Positions 65 to 47,151 of a stretch of 64,000 nucleotides of DNA are shown one piece after another; position 1 is the first letter of the stretch, and the number at the start of each line of letters is the position of its first letter. Location: the NCBI RefSeq assembly GCF_000279145.1, contig NC_018178.1, positions 372,001 to 436,000 of the forward strand, given 5' to 3'. This stretch comes from Melioribacter roseus P3M-2 (GTDB taxonomy: Bacteria; Bacteroidota; Ignavibacteria; Ignavibacteriales; Melioribacteraceae). The notes below the pieces were generated by a model, which was given only the letters and a program-made list of their open reading frames with translations, searched no databases and was not told the origin of the DNA. The position numbers and the translations under genes are program-made.

Positions 65-305
65 CTCGGCACCTTTAACGCTATTTTAAATTTTATAGCA
101 CAGAAAAATATTAAATATTCCGATAAATTCCAATAATAAAATGACTTACAGATAGATCAATCGAACAAAATGTTTCATAGTGATACACAAATCTAAATTT
201 AAGTCTGATTTTTCCGCAAAAAGCTGCATTTTTACTCTCTTTTCGCATGGCACGGGAATTGAGAGAGTAGTAATAAACATAATCGGAGAACGAAAGGAGT
301 TCGAA

Positions 306-680
306 ATGACACTGTTGCCAATTATATATACAAGCTTGATTTTCTTTTTCAGTTTGATGGTATTGGTTCTTTTGGTTTCTTATATCACCTTCAAACTGAG
401 AAAGCAAGAGAACCCCGCGATCGTCGAAGAAAGAAATAAAGTAATCCAGAACCAGTACAACTATCCTAATCCGGCGACAGTAAAACCGTATTACCAATAT
501 TATGAAAAACCCCGCAACGAGATCCGTCCGGTCGAAGTGAAAAAGCCGCAACGGAAGTCAAGCTCTTATCGTCGTCATCAAACTACGACCGGTAGAAAAC
601 GAATCGAGATTATCAACGAAAAATATACCGGACAAAGCTCTTCATATAATAGCGTATTCATAAACAACTACGCGGACTAA
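306..680 (+). CDS. Small single-pass membrane protein, RhEIIN-tail family, copy 1
   Basis: A 124-residue protein of unknown function. The ATG at 306 is chosen because AAAGGAG (about 293-299) sits at correct spacing; the same frame is open further upstream without a ribosome site. Residues about 4-29 form one hydrophobic helix, followed at once by KLRKQ, which suggests a cytoplasmic tail. The rest is polar, Pro/Tyr/Arg-rich and probably disordered, ending with RIEIINEKY before a Ser-rich end. The next gene (726-1031) and a distant one (46217-46498) share the plan: N-terminal helix starting with an L-x-x-I-I-[YF] pattern, Lys/Arg stop, low-complexity linker, and an R-[IY]-[EK]-I-I motif near the C-terminus. 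No Pfam family is recognised. Confidence 0.7.
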   Translation: MTLLPIIYTSLIFFFSLMVLVLLVSYITFKLRKQENPAIVEERNKVIQNQYNYPNPATVKPYYQYYEKPRNEIRPVEVKKPQRKSSSYRRHQTTTGRKRIEIINEKYTGQSSSYNSVFINNYAD

Positions 681-725
681 TTCCGAACTACTTTAATTTA
701 AGGAGTAATTTGTATATTTTAGGTT

Positions 726-1031
726 ATGGAATTGATACCTATTATATACAAAATACTCCTGGTAGTATTGTTTCTCTTCCTTTTAAGCATCGGCATATCA
801 TACGTCAAGAACAGGAAAAAGATAAACGGGGAAACTCAAAAGACAACTACTCCCGCAGTCAAAAAAAGTTTCGCTCCAAATACTCCCCCGCAGAAGCCTC
901 GAAAAGAACCCGAGCCGAAAGAAGAAAAATTCTATAAACCTGTGGTTACCAATTCGGGCGTCAAGGGAAAGAACAGCGACAATCCCCGCATCGAAATTAT
1001 CAAAGACTTAAAATCCAAAGGGAAGAAATAG
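726..1031 (+). CDS. Small single-pass membrane protein, RhEIIN-tail family, copy 2
   Basis: A 101-residue protein beginning MELIPIIYKILLVVLFLFLL, a single transmembrane helix ended by KNRKK. A Pro/Lys-rich linker with KEPEPKEEK follows, and the tail reads PRIEIIKDLKSKGKK. It is 45 bp downstream of the previous family member and probably cotranscribed with it. The helix opening (LIPIIY) matches copy 1 closely, as does the RIEII tail, so the two look like tandem paralogues. The tail may be a docking peptide for a conserved cytoplasmic partner; that is inference. Function unknown. Confidence 0.7.
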   Translation: MELIPIIYKILLVVLFLFLLSIGISYVKNRKKINGETQKTTTPAVKKSFAPNTPPQKPRKEPEPKEEKFYKPVVTNSGVKGKNSDNPRIEIIKDLKSKGKK

Positions 1032-13816: not shown

Positions 13817-14638
13817 CTACCGTCCTTTTCTTTGAAGGGAAAGATTCTTTCGATCGATAGATTTCCTGTTTATTTTCAATTGTCTGTTTCCTTCAACGGT
13901 TTGATATGCCCAGTCAAAAATCATTCTGTCGCCTGCAATGGCGCTTATTCTCACTTTCGCATATCTGTTATCCCACGTCCATATTACATACGTATGACCG
14001 GGTATTGCTTCTACATATTTAATATTTTCGCCGTCGTTAATCGGTACCCATCCGTCAGTCGGAGCAAAGCTTACGTCATAGATGTCATATGTAGGTCCCA
14101 TATCCTGAATGTCGGTATCCTCCCATACGTTCAGGTAATAAATTCCTTCATATTTTTCGAAAAAGAAGTCGGCTCCTTCGCCGTCATACGGAACTACCGA
14201 GTAATCGCTGAAATCGTATCCCGAATTCGATGGCGATACGTGCAAATCGAATAACGCCCTGTCGAAACCTTCGGGGCGTGGAGTGTCGTAAACAACGTCG
14301 TAGCTCAGCTCGCTTTCATTGTTGTTATAATCGAATGCGGTAACGGCATAGTAATATGTTACGCCGTTGCGGGCGCCGTAGTCCACAAAATAATTGTCGT
14401 AAGTCGTACCGATCAATTCGTACGTTCCGTCATACGAATAGCTAAAATAGACGTTGTAGCCGGCAAGGTCGGGTTCCTTGTTGCGCTGCCAATAGATATC
14501 CACCCTGTTATCTCCAGTGATTGTATTGATATTACGGGGCGGCATCGGCGGTATCGAATCGTATTCCCAGTCGTTAACATTATGACATCCGGCTGCGAAA
14601 ATTATCGCCGCTACAATCAATATCATCTTTTTCATCAC
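13817..14638 (-). CDS. Fibronectin type III domain lipoprotein
   Basis: A 273-residue predicted lipoprotein with a lipobox ending A-A-G-C18. Residues about 30-120 form one fibronectin type III domain (P-P-R-N-I start, W-x-R-N core, DLAGYNVYFS, and G-V-T-Y-Y-Y-A-V-T-A-F-D). The remaining 150 residues are beta-rich, acidic and aromatic, with no recognised domain. Proteins of this build are common surface or periplasmic lipoproteins in the FCB group. It stands alone between a 138 bp gap and the strong pyrC terminator. Ligand unknown. Confidence 0.75.
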   Translation of the reverse strand: MMKKMILIVAAIIFAAGCHNVNDWEYDSIPPMPPRNINTITGDNRVDIYWQRNKEPDLAGYNVYFSYSYDGTYELIGTTYDNYFVDYGARNGVTYYYAVTAFDYNNNESELSYDVVYDTPRPEGFDRALFDLHVSPSNSGYDFSDYSVVPYDGEGADFFFEKYEGIYYLNVWEDTDIQDMGPTYDIYDVSFAPTDGWVPINDGENIKYVEAIPGHTYVIWTWDNRYAKVRISAIAGDRMIFDWAYQTVEGNRQLKINRKSIDRKNLSLQRKGR

Positions 14639-14685
14639 ATCCTCCGGTTTTGAGTCGGTTGATGCAATATGAATGCCAGAATAAA

Positions 14686-43040: not shown

Positions 43041-43162
43041 CTCCCGCCCTGATTGATTTTCTTTTTATAAAGCTCAATGAGCTTTGACGAAATTATTATA
43101 GAGTTGAAAATATAATTTTGTATTTTTACAAACAACAAAAATTTTTTCAGGGTGAAACAAAA

Positions 43163-46087: not shown

Positions 46088-46216
46088 AAAGAATCGAAAT
46101 GATAACGCGTATCATAACGGGACATTATATCTTTAAAACGTTCCGTTTTTTATTAATTACCCCTAAAATCGAGGCACGCTTTATGCGATAATAAAGAAAA
46201 GAAATATTTAAACTCC

Positions 46217-46498
46217 ATGAAATTAAACGAAATCATTTTTCATATTCTTGCTATCTCATTTGCGCTGGCGCTAATTATAATTCTTTTTTCTTATACCATT
46301 ACCAAAATACGAAAGAAGAATCAACCGCCTGTAAATCGAATCAGCCGGACGCCCCCCATTATCACTCCGAAGACGCATATTATTCTACCGCGTAAAATCA
46401 AAGTGGTAAAGCAATACGATTTTAAGAAAGAGATGGAAAGCCATCAGATAAAAACGCGCCGTTATAAAATTATAAACGAGGAAATCCATAAAAGATAA
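46217..46498 (+). CDS. Small single-pass membrane protein, RhEIIN-tail family, copy 3
   Basis: A 93-residue protein: N-terminal helix (IIFHILAISFALALIIILFS), stop KIRKKNQ, a Pro/Ile-rich linker, and a tail RRYKIINEEIHKR. It follows the plan of the two proteins at 306-680 and 726-1031, about 45 kb away. It sits 10 bp before the DUF3052 gene and about 180 bp after ugd. Function unknown; the shared tail is the main clue. Confidence 0.65.
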   Translation: MKLNEIIFHILAISFALALIIILFSYTITKIRKKNQPPVNRISRTPPIITPKTHIILPRKIKVVKQYDFKKEMESHQIKTRRYKIINEEIHKR

Positions 46499-46507
46499 TT
46501 CAGACAG

Positions 46508-46972
46508 ATGACGGGAAAGAAAAACAATCCGTATTACAGAAAACTCCGCCTTAAAGATAATCAAAAGTTATTATTGATAAATCCGCCGGAAGAATTCGCG
46601 CGACTGATGTCTTCATTCAATCCCGACACAAAAGCGCGCAAAGGGATTCTTTTCGATATAATTTTTCTTTTTACGGAAACAAAGGATATCTTTAAAAAAG
46701 AACTGCCGGCGGCAATAAAAAAATTGAGCAATCAAGGAATATTGTGGACGGGATTTCCCAAAAAATCTTCGGGCATTCCCACCGACCTTAACCGCGATTC
46801 ATGTTATGAAATTTTGCAGGAAACGGGTTTGCAAATATTGACATTAGTTTCCGTAGACGTAAACTGGTCGGCTTTCGGGCTACGGGCGGGCGCAAAGCAT
46901 CAAAAGAAGGAAACCGGAAATCGGAATACATCGACGCCGAAAAGCGATCGGTTATTATCCCCGACGATTTAA
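46508..46972 (+). CDS. DUF3052-family protein, N-terminal part of a frameshifted fusion
   Basis: A 154-codon frame whose first 124 residues match DUF3052 (NPYYRKLRLKDNQKLLLIN, GILWTGFPKKSSGIPTDL, VSVDVNWSAFGLR). The last 30 residues are Ser/Thr/Lys-rich noise. The adjacent frame from about 46885 continues KASKEGNRKSEYIDAEKR and then the YdeI/OmpD-associated domain, so a single base is missing near the GGGCGGGCG run at 46883-46891. The intact protein would have about 214 residues. DUF3052-YdeI fusions are known as bacteriocin-protection-like proteins of uncertain function. Confidence 0.72.
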   Translation: MTGKKNNPYYRKLRLKDNQKLLLINPPEEFARLMSSFNPDTKARKGILFDIIFLFTETKDIFKKELPAAIKKLSNQGILWTGFPKKSSGIPTDLNRDSCYEILQETGLQILTLVSVDVNWSAFGLRAGAKHQKKETGNRNTSTPKSDRLLSPTI

Positions 46973-47151
46973 AGAAGGTTTTTAAGACGAATAAAAAAGC
47001 TTACGATTTTTTCGAAACGCTCTCGTTTACGAACAGAAAAGAATACGTTCTTTGGATAACCGGCGCGAAAAAAATCGAGACCAGGGAAAAACGGATTAAT
47101 CTGGCAATCGAATATTTGCTCGAAGGTAAAAAAAATCCGCACAAAAAATAA
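46864..47151 (+). pseudogene. YdeI/OmpD-associated domain, C-terminal part of the frameshifted fusion
   Basis: In the second frame the DNA reads RSVIIPDDLKKVFKTNKKAY, FFETLSFTNRKEYVLWITGA, then KKIETREKRINLAIEYLLEG to a stop at 47151. This is the usual YdeI C-terminal domain (F-x-x-L-S/T-x-x-x-R-K-E-Y-V-x-W-I). It has no start codon of its own and continues the DUF3052 gene. Confidence 0.75.

Follow-up and report, generated by a model that had tools for sequence, protein, structure and literature searches.

The closest precedent in design for the proteins described here is the PEP-CTERM/EpsH (exosortase) regulon with PrsK/PrsR. In the available part of its description (PMC1569441), PEP-CTERM genes form mostly single-gene operons with a common sigma-54 site, an activator motif lies within a limited range further upstream, and the regulon is tied to exopolysaccharide and to a predicted NtrC-type activator; the family we report is alike on each of these points. 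The products and the motif differ. By the same partial text, PEP-CTERM members are secreted and carry a C-terminal sorting signal, whereas the family here is small and N-terminally anchored, and the activator motif is TTTACA there and TGTNTCA-N3-TGANACA here (PMC1569441). That part of the source reports the PEP-CTERM cis-site for Proteobacteria only (PMC1569441). Pfam and NCBIfam scans of our three proteins matched no PEP sorting signal, and their C-termini were read directly.

A second point of comparison is PgaD, described in the accessible part of PMC8461298 as a small inner-membrane subunit of the PNAG synthase PgaCD. PgaD binds its synthase and c-di-GMP. The likeness lies in a small membrane protein that accompanies a GT2 synthase: in our genome the MELIPILS protein is encoded directly after a GT2 gene, in a TPR/GT2/deacetylase-like cluster. 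Unlike PgaD, the MELIPILS protein has no NCBIfam match and the three proteins under study have none above cut-off; the model, which covers the first of them, shows a single helix and a long tail of low confidence, and none of the three is encoded beside a synthase. By eye, the list of open reading frames (ORFs) holds no GT2 gene next to any of the three, and the MELIPILS relative alone is so placed. None of the family genes read adjoins synthase genes; their tie to them is shared regulation.

E. coli YqjD, ElaB and YgaM offer a third comparison. They are membrane-anchored, ribosome-associated proteins, anchored by their C-terminal tails and controlled by RpoS. Our proteins are likewise small, paralogous, membrane-anchored and under an alternative sigma factor; they differ in that the first protein has its confident helix, in the model, at residues 3-34 only, and we know of no R-phi-x-phi-phi-N motif in the E. 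coli proteins. The small membrane protein KPN_two_small (NF033853) resembles our second protein weakly and in the helix alone (19.9 bits against a cut-off of 33, over residues 10-33).

The window, that is the whole 64,000-base stretch of DNA analysed, is G000:C1:372001-436000 of the 3,300,414-base Melioribacter roseus genome. Three plus-strand ORFs at 306-680, 726-1031 and 46217-46498 lie where the first-pass annotation had placed them, and all begin with L-x-x-I-I-[YF]. The first encodes the 124-residue leading member of a tandem pair, with a helix at residues 3-34, a basic linker, the motif RIEIIN (residues 99-104; 600-617, plus strand) and a C-terminal NNYAD. The second, of 101 residues, carries RIEIIK at residues 88-93 (987-1004, plus strand); its gene lacks a sigma-54 core of its own and is presumably carried on the first gene's transcript. 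The third, of 93 residues and encoded by a single gene, carries RYKIIN at residues 82-87 (46460-46477, plus strand). All three motifs were read from the sequence. For the first protein we favour the start at 306 over a longer ORF from 180, since a near relative in the same genus has its start at that point and the promoter is situated between the two positions.

In all three proteins the helix ends in SY...K/R, and in an alignment of five sequences S25, Y26, K30 and R32 of the first do not vary. An AlphaFold2 model of that protein, made from the same number of input sequences, has a mean pLDDT of 59, with the helix at residues 3-34 as its only confident element (block means of 84, 95 and 88 there, below 60 elsewhere). 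Pfam and NCBIfam scans gave no match above cut-off for any of the three, in line with the earlier claim of an undescribed family. A PDB sequence search yielded a single match at E 0.8 and no relative. As sole query in its own genome, the second protein recovered itself and weak matches at E 0.12 (the MELIPILS protein) and 0.39. A limited literature search found no paper on this protein family, nor one joining Ignavibacteria, RpoN and exopolysaccharide. After the third gene, a 154-residue ORF at 46508-47150 (plus strand) by eye continues in another frame, and is perhaps a broken gene or one of two that overlap; the near relative has no ORF of at least 80 residues at this place.

Searches beyond the window make it well supported, as far as sequence comparison goes, that the three proteins belong to a real, previously unnamed family spread over the order Ignavibacteriales, to which NCBI assigns M. 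roseus. Its plan is an N-terminal membrane helix, M[ET]L-x-PIIY...SY-x-x-K, then a basic linker, then the motif R-[ILMVFY]-x-[IVL]-[ILVM]-[NKDT]. As a single query, P0002 found a near relative at E 1e-37 and a distant one at E 2e-6; against 96 genomes of the order its matches were weak and patterned, many starting from residue 1 and some forming pairs about 600 bases apart. An N-terminal profile of 37 residues was built from 23 sequences, the three window proteins included, and retrieves those three from the whole genome at E 8e-17, 8e-15 and 4e-13. It matches all 79 genomes of the organism's own family at E<=1; significance is not universal, with best E-values above 0.03 in genus g19, in G048 and in some others.

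To describe the family we read 77 matches, drawn from 40 fetched loci with their neighbourhoods, the window and eight further loci. They comprise 73 family members (69 non-identical) and four MELIPILS-type proteins. The motif occurs in 60 of the 69 non-identical members against 1.29 expected when each tail is shuffled, and its strict pattern in 10 of 13 members found later (0.18 expected). Some of the nine members without it have related residues by eye, such as KFTVLN in L031, NIQVLN in L036 and MEILN in L058. Against one close relative, 28-30 of 33 helix residues and 7-9 of 9 motif residues are identical in the three window proteins, while linker identity is 38/67, 32/55 and 35/48.

These results bear on most of what the first-pass annotation had proposed. 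Its observation that linkers diverge while helix and motif are kept agrees with the identities above, and profile searches found many further members in Ignavibacteriales genomes; neither an absence of relatives nor freely varying tails, its two named grounds for refutation, turned up. The tandem arrangement recurs as well, with at least two matches in 27 sources including the window, 20 of the 27 being chosen as pairs. Its picture of a C-terminal RhEIIN tail stands in one half: the motif is present in all three proteins and is family-wide, but it is not terminal in most members. From motif to C-terminus there are 20 residues in the first protein, 8 in the second and 6 in the third, and 6-68 across the family (median 43).

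Many members have a further conserved C-terminal segment, which by eye is [FY]Y[SA]D, LGDDILxKYxD... or NFYL. Proteins of the first-of-pair kind end in or near [FY]Y[SA]D, those of the second-of-pair kind have LGDDILxKYxDxxDxxFTL close to the end, and those of the single-gene kind carry R[YF]xIVNxE...NFYL, all by eye. Residues 2-6 are neutral or acidic in 69 of 69 members, and the net charge after residue 28 is positive in 68 of 69 (median +12). By the positive-inside rule, these charges would place the tail inside the cytoplasm and the N-terminus outside.

The family appears to be largely confined to its order. A 50-sequence profile matched 57 of 294 sampled genomes of the class at E<=0.001, namely 55 of 59 within the order and 2 of 235 outside it, the latter at E 6e-4 and 1e-3; in five of the 55 there is no clear match apart from one that is, or could be, the MELIPILS protein. 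The same profile also matches helix-only ORFs of 35-36 residues with an SY-x-AYK helix end in four genomes from two families, at L133 5477 (minus strand), L134 4168 (plus), L135 4521 (minus) and L136 4366 (minus), positions being counted along the strand named. They have no sigma-54 core within 80 bp and are possibly minimal relatives of the family.

The strongest feature is one that the first-pass annotation lacked: a predicted sigma-54 promoter, shared across the family, with a palindrome upstream of it. In the window the promoter sequence TGGCACGGGAATTG occupies 248-261 (plus strand), 44 bp before the start codon at 306, and is the window's only exact match to TGGCACNNNNNTTG. In a scan of 250 bp upstream, most first-of-pair and single genes proved to have one -24/-12 sequence in common, in almost the same position. 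Under a strict definition, TGG[CT]A[CT]N5TTG within 75 bp upstream, the core stands before 30 of the 42 first-of-pair or single entries; among second members 1 of 24 has it, and among the remaining ORFs at these loci 3 of 440. Among the 12 misses, L041 has a miscalled start and its site is present at 29 bp, and four have a near-match with one or two departures (the third window gene, L054, L071 and L073). For the other seven of the 42 (L051, L061, L064, L065, L066, L067 and the MELIPILS protein of L072) nothing core-like appears within 250-300 bp upstream; at L051 the core lies before the second gene instead.

The third window gene is preceded by a sigma-54-like site, AGGCACGCTTTATGCG, at 46172-46187 (plus strand), which keeps GG-N10-GC and has two departures from the strict core; its counterpart in the near relative has TGGCACACTAAGTGCG. 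We also picked by hand, from many profile matches and on protein matches alone, 14 more long-ORF loci in f2 and f3, two further families of the order. Thirteen hold a family member, and the strict core precedes 13 of 13; the fourteenth (L148) is MELIPILS-type and lacks it. RpoN itself is present in 76 of the 79 own-family genomes.

Across the whole genome the promoter pattern says little by itself. TGGCAYN5TTG occurs 26 times against 50 in a reversed control and TGGTAYN5TTG 32 times against 18, and many sites of the strict pattern fall within genes. Since the TGGCAY form is not enriched, many of these sites are chance occurrences and the pattern alone proves nothing. Within the window, a core TGGCATTCATATTG lies at 14665-14678 (minus strand), 26 bp before a lipoprotein-like ORF at 13817-14638 (minus strand), and has no palindrome.

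Above the promoter sites, GTCTCA and GTATCA are conspicuous; they are the arms of the palindrome TGTNTCA-N3-TGANACA. The pair has a perfect copy, TGTTTCATAGTGATACA, at 171-187 (plus strand), a predicted activator site that lies 60 bp before the sigma-54 site. We examined the upstream regions of 81 entries, 68 from the earlier loci (one of them MELIPILS-type) and 13 from f2 and f3. A slightly relaxed pattern found a promoter site in 48 of the 81, the remainder being mostly second-of-pair genes. The palindrome occurs with at most two mismatches before 22 of the 35 f1 sites, where shuffled sequence gives 0.59, and before 7 of the 13 from f2 and f3, where it gives 0.16; these counts are favoured by construction because the consensus came from the same 48 sequences.

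Spacing played no part in deriving that consensus. Palindrome-promoter distances fall at 47-51 bp (8 cases), 57-62 bp (27, against 0.7 expected), 66-70 bp (7) and 76-82 bp (1), which accounts for 43 of 48, with five elsewhere. The distances thus step by about one helical turn. Upstream of the third window gene there is a candidate weak palindrome, CGTATCATAACGGGACA, at 46108-46124 (plus strand), with three mismatches and a distance of 47 bp to the sigma-54-like site; in the near relative a two-mismatch palindrome lies at 66 bp. Genome-wide, a palindrome with at most one mismatch occurs at five places (two per strand in the control). Two have a strict core 60 bp further on, those of the pair and of a thioester-domain gene; the other three, one of them at 43143-43159 of the window, have none.

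Which genes share this arrangement was read at 56 of the 58 strict-pattern sites in the genome (26 of 26 TGGCAY, 30 of 32 TGGTAY). A palindrome with at most two mismatches precedes four of the 56, at 60 or 69 bp. One is the window pair, with no mismatch at 60 bp. Another stands before a 489-residue protein with thioester domain PF08341 (one mismatch, 60 bp), a third before the gene of a KaiC-like ATPase, after which a 1052-residue TPR protein is encoded (two mismatches, 69 bp), and the fourth before a GT2 gene followed by the 143-residue MELIPILS protein and a 634-residue protein (two mismatches, 69 bp). The last two operons belong to a Pga-like exopolysaccharide system. In G031 both of their counterparts, and in G003 the GT2 gene, likewise follow palindrome and promoter, there 76-78 bp apart. 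It is thus well supported, at the level of DNA sequence, that regulation is shared by the family, an exopolysaccharide system and the thioester-domain protein.

The polysaccharide cluster is best described as Pga-like, not Pga: the GT2 has PgaC/IcaA as its best NCBIfam match at 209.8 bits, well under the cut-off of 422.3, the TPR protein matches PrsT and PgaA weakly, and the large protein after the MELIPILS protein has a polysaccharide deacetylase match in G031 and none in this genome. The cluster (L150 3212-14108 in the own genome, and L072) opens with the KaiC-like ATPase gene (PF06745); a KaiC-like ATPase is an unusual companion for an export system. Several gene names used here were assigned by eye, namely HU, CopA, GuaB, Dps, Hsp20, FlgB, FliL, PtsN, HisZ and rpmH. 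A fifth site in this genome, with three mismatches at 69 bp, lies at L084 around 1501 (G000:C1:1321083), 167 bp before an rpmH-like ORF; between core and ORF there is by eye a G+C-rich inverted repeat followed by T's, and the stretch is perhaps a small RNA.

The MELIPILS protein may link the family to this cluster by more than regulation. The family helix profile aligns with the MELIPILS-group alignment over 36 columns with a probability of 96, and very little beyond the order matches the helix profile, so that we read the likeness as likely homology; a hydrophobic helix is a weak ground for such a claim, and the helix-only ORFs of 35-36 residues match the profile too. The MELIPILS protein is found in 86 of the 96 genomes of the order. 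In 44 own-family genomes searched for both, 38 have both, four have neither (G048 and the congeneric G066, G087 and G093), two have members only (G046 and G081) and none has the MELIPILS protein only, a table that scores a best E>0.01 as absent and G077 (best E 4e-5) as present, does not correct for shared ancestry, and comes from a MELIPILS search that left out eight own-family genomes with best E>0.03 (G099, G108, G109, G113, G114, G116, G125 and G130). This is modest evidence of co-absence. The tie looks looser in f3, where G003, G017, G021, G027 and G030 have a MELIPILS gene without a clear other member, and G025 and G036 have neither. A Fisher test of co-occurrence over 59 genomes was withdrawn, because in five f3 genomes the counted member is (G003, G017, G030) or may be (G021, G027) the MELIPILS protein itself.

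Combining these observations, we lean, at roughly even confidence, towards seeing the three proteins as membrane adaptors, paralogous to one another, that belong to a sigma-54-dependent attachment and exopolysaccharide regulon. The available part of PMC3162934 holds that sigma-54 mainly controls the cell exterior, with which this reading agrees.

Other readings place the proteins in different circuits. They could be small membrane proteins with a regulatory part in envelope stress or signalling, modulating a kinase or the activator itself by Psp-like logic; we think this unlikely. Small sigma-54-dependent membrane proteins are known from the Psp system, and two f2 genomes have a member preceded by a histidine kinase, an NtrC-type regulator (Sigma54_activat) and an M54 peptidase (L138 1583-5069 and L143 5097-8603, with Pfam matches for all three genes in L138 and for the regulator in L143). 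That neighbourhood was seen at these two loci only, however, the window proteins have no Pfam or NCBIfam match to a Psp family, and the most similar regulator in this genome does not track the family. That regulator, at G000:C1:1023587-1024936, was taken as a candidate activator because, of 13 regulators compared out of 15 strong matches, it is the closest to the f2 regulator beside a member, and because a TPR protein resembling the one of the polysaccharide operon is encoded nearby. We rejected it as the activator: matches at E<=1e-140 occur in the member-less G048, G066, G087 and G093 and are missing from many member-bearing genomes (there are matches in 40 of 96 genomes). Its NCBIfam score as PrsR, 408.5 bits, falls short of the cut-off of 502.6. 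At L143, a cytochrome c552 nitrite reductase pair follows the kinase-regulator-peptidase row.

Rather improbable, in our judgement, is that the proteins tether ribosomes or the nucleoid to the membrane, as stress-sigma-induced paralogs of the YqjD/ElaB/YgaM kind whose basic cytosolic part binds ribosomes or DNA. Several short paralogs with a strongly basic post-helix part under an alternative sigma factor would suit such a role, as would the HU gene found near members in 25 of the 40 fetched loci. Yet the helix is N-terminal rather than C-terminal, charge alone leaves the hydrophobic motif and the end segment unexplained, and the palindrome precedes exopolysaccharide and thioester-domain genes, not Dps or Hsp20. 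A general sigma-54 stress regulon was discarded, the best palindromes at the Dps and Hsp20 sites having four mismatches at 3 bp and three at 168 bp. Elsewhere, at L210 4284-6434, a Dps-like gene with a sigma-54 core stands opposite a divergent gene matching Sigma54_activat, which suggests a local sigma-54 switch for Dps.

We consider it very unlikely that the proteins simply belong to the copper-export or HU locus adjoining the pair. Besides HU, CopA lies near members in 16 and GuaB in 14 of the 40 loci, and the HU/member arrangement is seen again in f2 and f3. The pair nevertheless stays in L048, L049, L050 and L062, where the neighbouring ORFs read hold no CopA, and the promoter before it is of the type seen in the exopolysaccharide regulon. 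Other members, the third protein among them, are located elsewhere: relatives of the third sit before PtsN-like and HisZ-like genes, and a further member group adjoins LOG-like and macro-domain-like genes.

A role as flagellar accessory proteins, raised by FlgB-like and FliL-like genes behind sigma-54 cores in this genome, retains a minute probability and was rejected on two grounds. The promoters do not agree, as sigma-54 sites before the FlgB, FliL and FlhA genes, like those before Dps and Hsp20, have no palindrome. Nor does the distribution: G026, G033, G038, G040, G042 and G091 (98-100% completeness) have strong members and no FlhA match, whereas the g19 and G048 genomes have FlhA and no significant member. 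That unrelated low-complexity membrane proteins resemble one another by chance, given how common hydrophobic helices and basic linkers are, has virtually no probability left in the face of the profile E-values, the motif counts against shuffles, the common promoter and palindrome, and the order-restricted distribution.

Returning to membrane adaptors of an attachment and exopolysaccharide regulon, a mechanism can be outlined in which activator binding at the palindrome, cytosolic orientation, adaptor role and common membrane partner are all predictions. An NtrC-type activator would sense a surface or envelope cue and turn these genes on together. Each protein would insert as one helix, its N-terminus outside and its basic disordered part inside. 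The shared helix face PIIY...SY..K may bind a membrane partner that all of them share, with the polysaccharide synthase or another membrane protein of its machinery as the likeliest candidate, while the linker would act as a tether and the R-phi-x-phi-phi-N motif and C-terminal segment would dock cytosolic partners. On this view the dedicated subunit would be the small protein whose gene immediately follows that of the synthase, with the family as its stand-alone relatives. A more far-reaching form of this idea, which we offer as speculation with a low chance of being right, is that these are interchangeable single-helix subunits with one docking face for a polysaccharide synthase or export machine and differing cytosolic docking peptides, so that one synthase could be wired to several cytosolic inputs, all under a dedicated sigma-54 activator.

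An unnamed, order-wide family now has a promoter and a predicted activator site to its name, together with a set of genes arranged alike, and the question of its function is narrowed to a short list of testable interactions. It would be a second case, after PEP-CTERM, in which a sigma-54 plus activator-site signature distinguishes a group of paralogs with ties to exopolysaccharide. According to the available part of PMC3534657, a wooden surface bearing a microbial mat was the source of M. roseus. Since the DNA switch before their genes is of the kind found at genes for a slime-like surface sugar and a surface adhesin, these proteins probably have a part in how such bacteria attach and build mats.
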